A model generated the notes under the pieces. The model saw only the letters and a program-made list of their open reading frames with translations. It was not told the origin of the DNA and did not search any database. A DNA stretch of 34,928 nucleotides, from positions 1 to 34,928 of the IMG/VR virus record IMGVR_UViG_3300031841_002317; one strand, given 5' to 3'. The position numbers were made by a program, and so were the translations under genes. Within the stretch, counting starts at the first letter, position 1. The number at the start of each line of letters is the position of its first letter. The stretch is from a virus. This document shows, in pieces, positions 28,967-30,789 of the stretch.

Positions 28967-29163
28967 CTAAAGAGGAAAAGCTAGAGGCTAGGTTGATCAA
29001 CTTGGAAACCGCTTTTATAGCCTATTCAACGCTAACAATAAACCTGTTGCCAGAAGATGCTCAACAGTCTACATATAACATGATTAATGAGTTGTTCAAT
29101 AGCGCATTAACGCTAGGCAAAGACGAAAACCAGATTGATTTTATTAAGGAGACTAGACAATAA
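28963..29163 (+). CDS. Small helical protein, unknown
   Basis: A 66-residue acidic helical protein (K-E-E-K-L-E-A-R-L-I-N-L-E-T-A-F) with no recognised domain. It is the last gene before the long non-coding stretch. Its stop lies inside the promoter at 29154-29181. Confidence 0.55.
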   Translation: MTKEEKLEARLINLETAFIAYSTLTINLLPEDAQQSTYNMINELFNSALTLGKDENQIDFIKETRQ

Positions 29164-29181
29164 CCAAGAATGAGGTATAAT
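29154..29181 (+). promoter_or_regulatory. Strong sigma70-like promoter of the structured non-coding region
   Basis: TAGACA at 29154-29159 (five of six), 16 bases, then a perfect TATAAT at 29176-29181. Transcription would start near 29188, immediately before the attenuator-like RNA. Confidence 0.7.
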
Positions 29182-29187
29182 TAAAAA

Positions 29188-29334
29188 CGCTGAAATGAGA
29201 CGCAGCAAAGATTTAAAAACACACAAACAGATAATAGAAAGACTTTAAGAGAACTCAGAAAGCCTAGTTGTAATTCGTTTGTGTGTAACTAGATCAAGCT
29301 TGTCTCAACTGGGTTCCCTTAAGGTCTTTTTTTT
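29188..29334 (+). ncRNA. Attenuator-like leader or small RNA ending in a strong terminator
   Basis: Starting from the promoter at 29154-29181, the RNA ends in an 18-position stem, 29241-29258 with 29309-29326 (17 pairs, one mismatch, two G-U), followed by eight T. CTAGTT at 29264-29269 and AACTAG at 29287-29292 form an inner stem. ACACACAAAC at 29219-29228 is exactly complementary to GTTTGTGTGT at 29277-29286 in the terminator loop. That gives a crossing or competing pairing as in antitermination. No open frame of note is present. It may be a stable small RNA or an attenuator controlling the nuclease gene downstream. Confidence 0.6.
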
Positions 29335-29356
29335 CGCCTCAAGTTTCCTCAGTAAA

Positions 29357-29501
29357 TAGTTAGCATATCAACGACCACTTGTCACAGATTGGGTTTAAGT
29401 CCCTTTTGGAGATAACTGGCGGGAATATTAATTCCGACGATGCCGTTTCAATAGGTGGCGTTGATATGCTAATTGACAAGTCCTTTGAGAATTTAGATTC
29501 T
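29357..29501 (+). ncRNA. Structured RNA with 14-bp stem and crossing pairing, upstream of the GIY-YIG gene
   Basis: TTAGCATATCAACG (29360-29373) is the exact reverse complement of CGTTGATATGCTAA (29459-29472), closing an 85-nt interior. Inside, 29414-29447 forms an 11-bp arm ending in GGAAT-ATTA-ATTCC. ACTTGTCA (29377-29384) inside the loop is complementary to TGACAAGT (29474-29481) just outside the stem, a pseudoknot-type crossing. AGAAT-TTAG-ATTCT follows at 29488-29501. All frames have stops. No group I, group II or tRNA hallmark was found. The family is unknown. Confidence 0.55.
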
Positions 29502-29689
29502 TGTTCAGCAGAAATGAAAACGAGTCAGGAAAGCAAGACATTAAATACGGCTTTATAAATCCTAGCAATGCTGACTACTTGTATCTAGGTCGTTTAATGG
29601 GACCAGTCTATGGGAAATATAAAAGGGTAACGAGTACCAAGGTTTAGTGAGTTTAGATAACTTACCAGCCTATGGGAAAGGGGGAAGAT
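29502..29689 (+). other. Remaining non-coding leader of the GIY-YIG gene
   Basis: No gene is seen here. It holds a hairpin at 29585-29606 (CT-GGTC with GACC-AG), a small GGTA/TACC hairpin near 29625-29637 and two copies of a 16-base repeat (29602-29617 and 29664-29679). No good promoter was found inside, so transcription most likely comes from 29154 through the attenuator. Confidence 0.45.
29602..29679 (+). repeat. 16-base direct repeat ACCAGYCTATGGGAAA, two copies
   Basis: Copies at 29602-29617 and 29664-29679 match at 15 of 16 bases, 62 bases apart. The second copy holds an in-frame ATG (29672) of the nuclease reading frame; the first copy's ATG gives only a five-codon frame. Possibly a duplicated translation-start region. 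Confidence 0.6.
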
Positions 29690-30265
29690 ATGGCTAAAAA
29701 GAAAAAGTGGAAGAGTGAATCAGCAAAAAGAGGTTTAACAGAGAAACAAAAGTTGATGGCGAACTTGCATAGAATAGTTAAATCAAAAACAATTGATGAG
29801 AAAGATAGGTCGATCGCGTCCTCTCTAATAACTTGGTATTTGCGTAGGCATGGATTGTCGCCATCTCAATGGGATTATGCGGACGTCATTATTAGAAGGC
29901 ATAAAGCGGTTAGAGAATCAAAAAATACAGATAAGAAGCAATATTTGTATGGGATATCTGATGGAGAGATGATTAAGCTTGGCATGAGCTACAATCCAAA
30001 AAGCAGAATAAAAGAGCTTCAAACGTCAAACCCGAAAGATTTAAAAATGATTTGGAGTTACTACACTGGTAAATGCGTTCAGACGGCTAGAAACCTCGAG
30101 AAAAAACTACACAGAAGATGTAAAAAACACAAAGTTCGGGGCGAATGGTTCTCTATGGACTGCTTTGATCTAGTAAAGGCGTTTAGAGGTCAAGATGAGA
30201 AACGAGCAAGATCATTAAATGAGCACGATCTAGAATTGATTAAACAATCACAAAAGATGGGTTAG
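29690..30265 (+). CDS. GIY-YIG nuclease-like protein (MUG113/T5orf172 type)
   Basis: 191 residues from ATG 29690, with GGGGGA just upstream; an in-frame ATG at 29672 lacks a better ribosome site. The N-terminal 80 residues are basic and helical and may bind DNA. The C-terminal domain has Q-Y-L-Y-G-I at residues 84-89, I-K-L-G-M-S at 95-100, R106, L-Q-T-S-N-P near 110-115, E137 and G-E-W-F at 151-154. These are the GIY, YIG-equivalent, Arg and Glu positions of this superfamily. It could be a free-standing homing-type endonuclease or another phage nuclease. It follows the structured RNA region directly. Confidence 0.8.
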   Translation: MAKKKKWKSESAKRGLTEKQKLMANLHRIVKSKTIDEKDRSIASSLITWYLRRHGLSPSQWDYADVIIRRHKAVRESKNTDKKQYLYGISDGEMIKLGMSYNPKSRIKELQTSNPKDLKMIWSYYTGKCVQTARNLEKKLHRRCKKHKVRGEWFSMDCFDLVKAFRGQDEKRARSLNEHDLELIKQSQKMG

Positions 30266-30297
30266 ACAACCTATAACTTAATAATTGGAGAATGGAA
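30262..30297 (+). repeat. 36-base intercistronic repeat, copy 1
   Basis: Contains the TAG stop of the GIY-YIG gene, then AACCTATAACTTAATAA and a GGAG ribosome site for the next gene. A second copy at 30754-30789 differs at two of 36 positions. Confidence 0.8.
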
Positions 30298-30553: not shown

Positions 30554-30757
30554 ATGATAAACAATATAAGAAAGAAACTAATAAAGCTGCTTGTTGGCGA
30601 TATGCCCGTATGCATGAACTACGAATTAGTTTTATTTAATGAGGCGAAAGCCATAACAGTAATCGATCCAAAAGATAACTGCATATTTGATAACAACCTT
30701 TTAATTACAGACTGCTCAGATAGCAGCTATCAAATGACCCCGATTTTACAGGATTAG
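30554..30757 (+). CDS. Small hypothetical protein
   Basis: A 67-residue protein with a basic helical N-terminus (N-I-R-K-K-L-I-K-L-L) and a beta-like remainder (E-L-V-L-F-N-E-A-K-A-I-T-V-I-D). GGAG plus GGAA lie upstream. Its TAG stop falls inside the second copy of the 36-base repeat. Not recognised. Confidence 0.55.
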   Translation: MINNIRKKLIKLLVGDMPVCMNYELVLFNEAKAITVIDPKDNCIFDNNLLITDCSDSSYQMTPILQD

Positions 30758-30789
30758 ACAACCTATAACTTAATAACTGGAGAATAGAA
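30754..30789 (+). repeat. 36-base intercistronic repeat, copy 2
   Basis: Same organisation as the copy at 30262-30297: upstream stop TAG at 30755-30757, A/T-rich middle, GGAG ribosome site, and the next gene's ATG at its end (30789). Confidence 0.8.

Follow-up and report, generated by a model that had tools for sequence, protein, structure and literature searches.

A conserved RNA helix upstream of a phage GIY-YIG nuclease gene appears to enclose one slot of a modular RNA array in which tRNAs and tRNA-like RNAs stand beside hypervariable structured RNAs

Results

The locus and its relatives

The window, by which we mean the whole stretch of DNA analysed, comprises an entire virus record of 34,928 bases and is distantly related to marine podoviruses such as Methylophilales phage MEP301. 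The region considered here runs from a promoter, through two structured RNA elements, to a nuclease gene, and contains the following features (relatives are given by L numbers).

29154..29181, + strand: array promoter (TAGACA-16-TATAAT), matching 11/12 consensus bases and conserved in relatives
29189..29334, + strand: RNA1, a hypervariable pseudoknotted RNA ending in a U-run, three helices of which covary (7-9 phages)
29196..29201, + strand: hairpin-loop strand of RNA1 (TGAGAC), pairing with GTCTCA at 29302-29307 as helix P1pk
29219..29228, + strand: 5' arm of RNA1 helix P2, pairing with 29277-29286 (arm comparison)
29240..29249, + strand: 5' arm of RNA1 helix P3, pairing with 29318-29327 directly 5' of the U-run (arm comparison)
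29345..29359, + strand: conserved inter-slot spacer TTCCTCAGTAAATAG, identical in L001, L002, L029, L047 and L052
29360..29373, + strand: 5' arm of the slot-6 stem, TTAGCATATCAACG, exactly complementary to 29459-29472 and compared among relatives
29374..29458, + strand: Y cargo RNA, with an inner helix (29375-29382/29451-29458) and two hairpin arms (fold; core identity)
29377..29384, + strand: 8-base segment of a doubtful crossing helix, ACTTGTCA, exactly complementary to 29474-29481
29459..29472, + strand: 3' arm of the slot-6 stem (complementarity; comparison among relatives)
29473..29523, + strand: 3' flank of slot 6, conserved in relatives, including the second 8-base segment (29474-29481)
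29524..29671, + strand: ultraconserved non-coding leader of the nuclease gene, 100% identical in L001 and L002 and 90% in L123
29672..30265, + strand: ORF for a GIY-YIG endonuclease with MUG113 and T5orf172 domains

L001 and L002 were first recruited through a match to the GIY-YIG protein. Scans for conserved strings, run as exact patterns on IMG/VR and GTDB, recruited further arrays from uncultured phages (L095, L101, L107, L109, L111, L112/L143, L113 and L123, L143 being an extension of L112), and the array is present in about 15 uncultured phage records. L002 is 100% identical to the window across the 316 bases of 29356-29671 and carries additional RNA modules 5' of the equivalent region. 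A single contig, IMGVR_UViG_3300032087_003094 (74,480 bases), bears both the L029 and the L052 arrays, which are related yet distinct and lie about 35 kb from each other, so the contig seems to combine two phage genomes.

The 14-bp inverted repeat is a conserved helix

The original prediction had singled out a perfect 14-bp inverted repeat in a gene-free stretch, enclosing a well-formed arm at 29414-29447. The repeat was confirmed where it had been placed and is well above chance, no ORF of ≥70 aa was found in the stretch, and the arm is present in the computed fold. Across the window, the repeat is unique at its length within 200 nt, and dinucleotide shuffling of the whole window produced a 14-bp repeat in 2 of 100 runs. 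For the 128-nt region the computed folding energy is -47.3 kcal/mol (z = -5.2 versus shuffles), a stability that comes from the stem, since the cargo alone (85 nt, stem removed) gives z = -1.1.

Relatives retain the pairing with altered letters (TTAGCATA/TATGCTAA versus TTAGTATA/TATACTAA). The outer stem follows the consensus TTAG[C/T]ATA/TAT[G/A]CTAA, in which a C-G pair becomes U-A through changes on both arms, and the inner half has been wholly rewritten between relatives with complementarity kept. The stem is 14 bp and perfect in the window, 15 bp and perfect in L143, and 8 + 9 bp with two mismatches in L123. On this comparison, we conclude that the repeat is a genuine conserved RNA helix, with support that is good but not deep because the data hold only three independent versions of the slot-6 stem.

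The proposed crossing helix fared less well. An 8-base match within ≤20 nt of the stem occurred in 3.1% of shuffles, so that, of the nested and crossing complementarity originally described as hard to explain by chance, the nested repeat stands and the crossing match is weak; restricting the search to the 12 nt on the right of the stem lowered the figure to 0.5%. The 8-bp helix is invariant among the near-identical copies of Y, and the partner is not kept in phages without Y, where the flank equivalent to 29474-29481 reads TTAACAAGTCC in L001, TTAAAGTCC in L143 and TTAAAGTC in L123. The G at 29475 that completes the complementarity occurs only alongside Y and counts as one event. H-type geometry would also be strained, with the single base 29473 linking the foot of the 14-bp stem to the second helix, and we regard the crossing helix as sterically doubtful and weak; the pseudoknot proposed for this feature finds no clear support. 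The segment 29377-29384 also competes with the inner helix 29375-29382/29451-29458, and a switch between the two pairings is possible, because the inner helix is weakened in L029 and L052.

Slot 6 holds different RNAs in different phages

The stem encloses Y in four phage genomes (the window, L002, L029 and L052). In L123, slot 6 holds an RNA different from Y, and in L143 it holds tRNA-Ser(TGA) and tRNA-Ser(GCT), as identified by ARAGORN, around which the slot position and a recognisable 3' flank are kept. In L001, Y is missing and its stem survives only as a portion of the 3' arm, and two tRNA-Arg genes occupy the neighbouring slot 5. Genuine tRNAs thus sit in the arrays of relatives, in L143 within the very slot that holds Y in the window; ARAGORN found no tRNA left in the window itself. 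Comparison shows slot 6 to be a container with interchangeable cargo, tRNAs among its possible fillings, because the occupants differ while the stem still pairs. The 3' flank (29473-29523) is present in L001 without Y and, in divergent form, in L143 and L123, so the flank, including 29474-29481, belongs to the slot and not to Y.

The 84-nt core of Y is identical in its four genomes, in contrast to the other non-tRNA cargos of the array. Two copies carry changes that weaken the inner 8-bp helix (GGCGG in L029, GGTGA in L052), and the four copies are too alike for the internal fold to be tested. Neither ARAGORN nor RF00005 found a cloverleaf with T arm and acceptor in Y, and we rejected the idea that it is a tRNA or a tRNA remnant. 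Searches against the ribozymes, riboswitches and introns of Rfam 15 gave only weak matches far under the curated scores; the earlier reading had seen no group I, group II, HDV-like or tRNA signature. Cultured phages and plasmids gave no credible match to Y. The compensating changes in the stem and the core identical in four phage genomes bear out the view that this is a conserved, previously unclassified RNA.

The nuclease gene and its leader form an exchangeable block

The GIY-YIG ORF matches MUG113 and T5orf172 above cut-off and has a PHROG homing endonuclease match; we predict it to be a neighbouring homing-type endonuclease gene. The gene and its L123 counterpart share only 67% identity in the ORF, against 90% in the 148-nt leader (L123 3640-3796). 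Nuclease and leader behave as one exchangeable block (about 29524-30261), which replaces the Z RNA of L029 and L052, and Y occurs with or without the gene just as the gene occurs with or without Y. A coding function for the leader was rejected, the open frame of the window being broken by a stop in the L123 homologue. A group I intron core in 29474-29671 was likewise dropped: the L123 homologue changes both sides of the P7-like GACT/AGTC pairing without compensation. Elsewhere, HNH nuclease genes come after the arrays of L095 and L113 and, at a greater downstream distance, after that of L101, and no nuclease adjoins the arrays of L107, L109 and L112. The window also carries an identical 23-nt gene-start leader, TTAGACAACCTATAACTTAATAA, at 30262-30284 and 30754-30776, 5' of two small genes.

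Slot 6 belongs to a promoter-led series of stems

The 14-bp stem encloses slot 6 of an array whose modules are tRNAs, tRNA-like RNAs or hypervariable structured RNAs; the original prediction had missed this array. The sigma-70-like promoter is conserved in L001, L002, L029, L052 and L079, and it is this conservation that constitutes the evidence, a consensus scan alone being not above chance. Where slots are present, the order is constant: the promoter is followed by RNA1 and then by up to five stems, long and mostly A+T-rich, each of which loops out an exchangeable cargo. The stem of slot 2 is variable (e.g., GCCCGTTG/CAACGGGC), and those of slots 3, 4 and 5 are CTGTTTAATA/TTAAGCAG, GTGTTTATA/TATAAACAC and GATGATATA/TATATCATC, respectively. 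In slots 2-4, the arms pair better within one phage than across phages; the slot 5 stem hardly varies. The cargo may be one or two tRNAs, a tRNA-like RNA with a replaced anticodon domain, or a non-tRNA RNA such as Y, and it shifts between slots: X RNA (described below) fills slot 4 of L001 but slot 5 of L002 and L052, and slot 4 of L002 and slot 5 of L123 both carry a tRNA-Leu-like RNA. Modules are also lost as units, as in L001 and the window, which is without slots 2-5 and keeps RNA1 and slot 6 alone; comparison with L002 suggests that its slot 5 was lost between two ATAG repeats. A further promoter-led non-coding stretch, in which changes appear to keep a stem, was seen at L052 1685-1790 and L096 1135-1240; its conserved strings are absent from the window.

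RNA1 was seen in the window and in L001, L002, L052, L101, L107, L111, L112 and L123. It is triply pseudoknotted, the loop of its 5' hairpin pairing with a 3' segment, and its long helix P2 is completely changed from phage to phage. We compared the arms directly, because a MAFFT alignment misplaces P2, and found that pairing between a phage's own arms was longer than re-pairing between phages (p = 0.0006 to 0.00005 per helix, 7-9 phages); for P2, the mean helix was 9.4 bp within and 5.0 bp between phages, an effect size that is still large although the arms were picked by eye, which favours self-pairing. RNA1 had no match in Rfam. A different RNA occupies its position in L079 and L109, and a third type in L095 and L113. 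RNA1 is better supported as a pseudoknot than the slot-6 feature, and is the stronger RNA candidate.

X RNAs (seen in L099, L101, L106, L107, L109, L111, L112, L113, L116, L119, L123, L095, L001, L002 and L052) share a common cap (UAUAUGUGGUGGAGUU ... AGCUCCCCUUCAUA) around interiors whose bases are entirely different between phages. A tRNA-like ACCA ends the cap in L099 and L116; in the others the ending is CCCUUCA, and U.U and U.C mismatches are conserved. The X RNA of L107 contains a nested tRNA-Leu-like sequence; tRNA genes apparently nested in another structured RNA or tRNA were also noted at L107 8390-8565 (- strand) and L087 12808-12991. The tRNA-like RNAs of L002, L123 and L109 have, by sequence and fold, recognisable D and T arms and CCA, with inserts or a replaced hairpin at the position of the anticodon arm, and are presumably unable to act in translation. 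Z RNA is a terminal module (L029 12480-12740, L052 475-680, L079 5100-5310 and L109 4360-4520, - strand) whose stems apparently covary (TTTAGACC/GGTCTAA versus TGAGGG/CCCTCA) and surround conserved AGCAGG and GTTCTGCATA strings.

The array appears undescribed, because, apart from pieces of tRNA, neither its region in the window nor the L123 array had a credible match in collections of cultured phages and plasmids; within the open-licence papers searched, none described such an array. Matches to 18-mers in prokaryote genomes came without an array, look like chance, and were set aside. A second spacer pattern searched in viral contigs yielded zero new arrays, and no array could be recognised in L003, which is a distant GIY-YIG relative.

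Discussion

Comparison among the relatives shows a conserved promoter and conserved helices, interchangeable cargo, and a Y RNA uncoupled from the nuclease. We consider it probable (roughly 0.6) that the feature is slot 6 of a tRNA/small RNA array made as one transcript, with the stem as a processing stalk and Y released as a small RNA. A single transcript would start from the 29154-29181 promoter and cover the array, reading through RNA1; read-through must be assumed because RNA1 ends in a terminator-like U-run 5' of Y. A host RNase, RNase III for example, would then cleave the slot stem, in the manner of pre-rRNA, and Y, most likely a non-tRNA RNA cut from the polycistronic transcript at its stem, would be freed as a stable small RNA acting in trans. 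Its role is the least certain step. Y is perhaps accessory or anti-defence, and an anti-defence role would be the most likely because phage tRNAs are used so and other cargos of the array diversify quickly; we hold this part tentatively, at less than even odds. It has been proposed that phages withstand tRNA-cutting defences by means of their own tRNAs (PMC10264068), and the homing endonuclease SegB, often co-located with phage tRNAs, amplifies a tRNA overcoming Septu, a tRNA-cutting defence (PMC13096335). The GIY-YIG endonuclease may help the array to spread by homing.

Y lies ~200 nt 5' of the GIY-YIG gene, on the same strand and with a stable fold, which would suit an RNA that acts on the gene in cis, as a controlling leader or by processing itself; the original prediction had set the feature before that gene, with a self-processing RNA among its options. 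We find such control improbable and a link of Y to the gene contradicted: L029 and L052 pair Y with Z RNA and have no nuclease there, L001 and L123 have nuclease and leader with no Y, a separate and highly conserved leader intervenes between Y and the gene, and no Rfam ribozyme or riboswitch matches. An accidental repeat or ordinary terminator is barely credible; about 2% of whole-window shuffles do give a 14-bp repeat, yet the compensating changes and the core conserved in four genomes rule out chance, and no U-run follows the stem.

Were the slot stems DNA elements, such as cassette recognition or recombination sites or endonuclease targets, with RNA pairing a side effect, one would understand why outer stem parts are conserved as sequence, why cargos hop across slots and why nuclease genes follow several arrays. 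Against this, the inner stem halves are rewritten on both arms with pairing kept, no integrase-type gene was seen beside the window's array, and genuine tRNAs fill slots, which argues that the unit is a transcribed RNA; we judge this explanation unlikely. It is more doubtful again that the whole array is one large ornate RNA of the GOLLD or ROOL type, with slot stems as outer helices and cargos as appendages. RNA1 is intricate and pseudoknotted, and GOLLD and ROOL, structured, pseudoknotted phage RNAs, occur close to phage tRNA islands, the GOLLD linker sometimes bearing tRNAs (PMC12286853); the array is likewise structured phage RNA with pseudoknots alongside tRNAs. However, it consists of small separable modules, slots are freely gained and lost to the point that the window keeps RNA1 and slot 6 only, a U-run ends RNA1, and the GOLLD and ROOL covariance models of Rfam gave no match.

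The one-transcript array with stem-enclosed cargo has partial parallels in known systems. Phage tRNA clusters of the T4/T6 type, with their Seg homing endonucleases, also hold tRNAs in one unit with a homing-type endonuclease adjoining, and the array bears a general resemblance to T4 RNA C and RNA D, non-tRNA small RNAs within a tRNA cluster. Here, however, each unit sits in its own long stem, cargos swap slots, most of the non-tRNA cargos are hypervariable, and a pseudoknotted RNA stands at the head of the array. In pre-rRNA, RNase III stems around 16S and 23S rRNA bring the mature ends together; the slots resemble these stalks in setting a long stem, presumably cleaved, around a cargo, and differ from them in that the cargo is small RNAs and tRNAs.

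A broader proposal, speculative and in our estimate doubtful, is a cassette system: stems and tRNA-like scaffolds would stay constant and present hypervariable structured RNA domains, which would pass from slot to slot and from phage to phage, under the pressure of an arms race against host defences that recognise or cleave RNA. If true, the system would be the equivalent, in RNA, of a hypervariable gene array. It has long been asked why phages carry tRNAs and, next to them, stable RNAs of other kinds, and the array offers the same slot with tRNAs in one phage and an unclassified structured RNA in another. The slot stems, the X caps and the promoter-linked RNA1 make a searchable, testable signature, and should the cargos prove to be RNAs that counter host defences, many new RNAs of this type would be available from the array.
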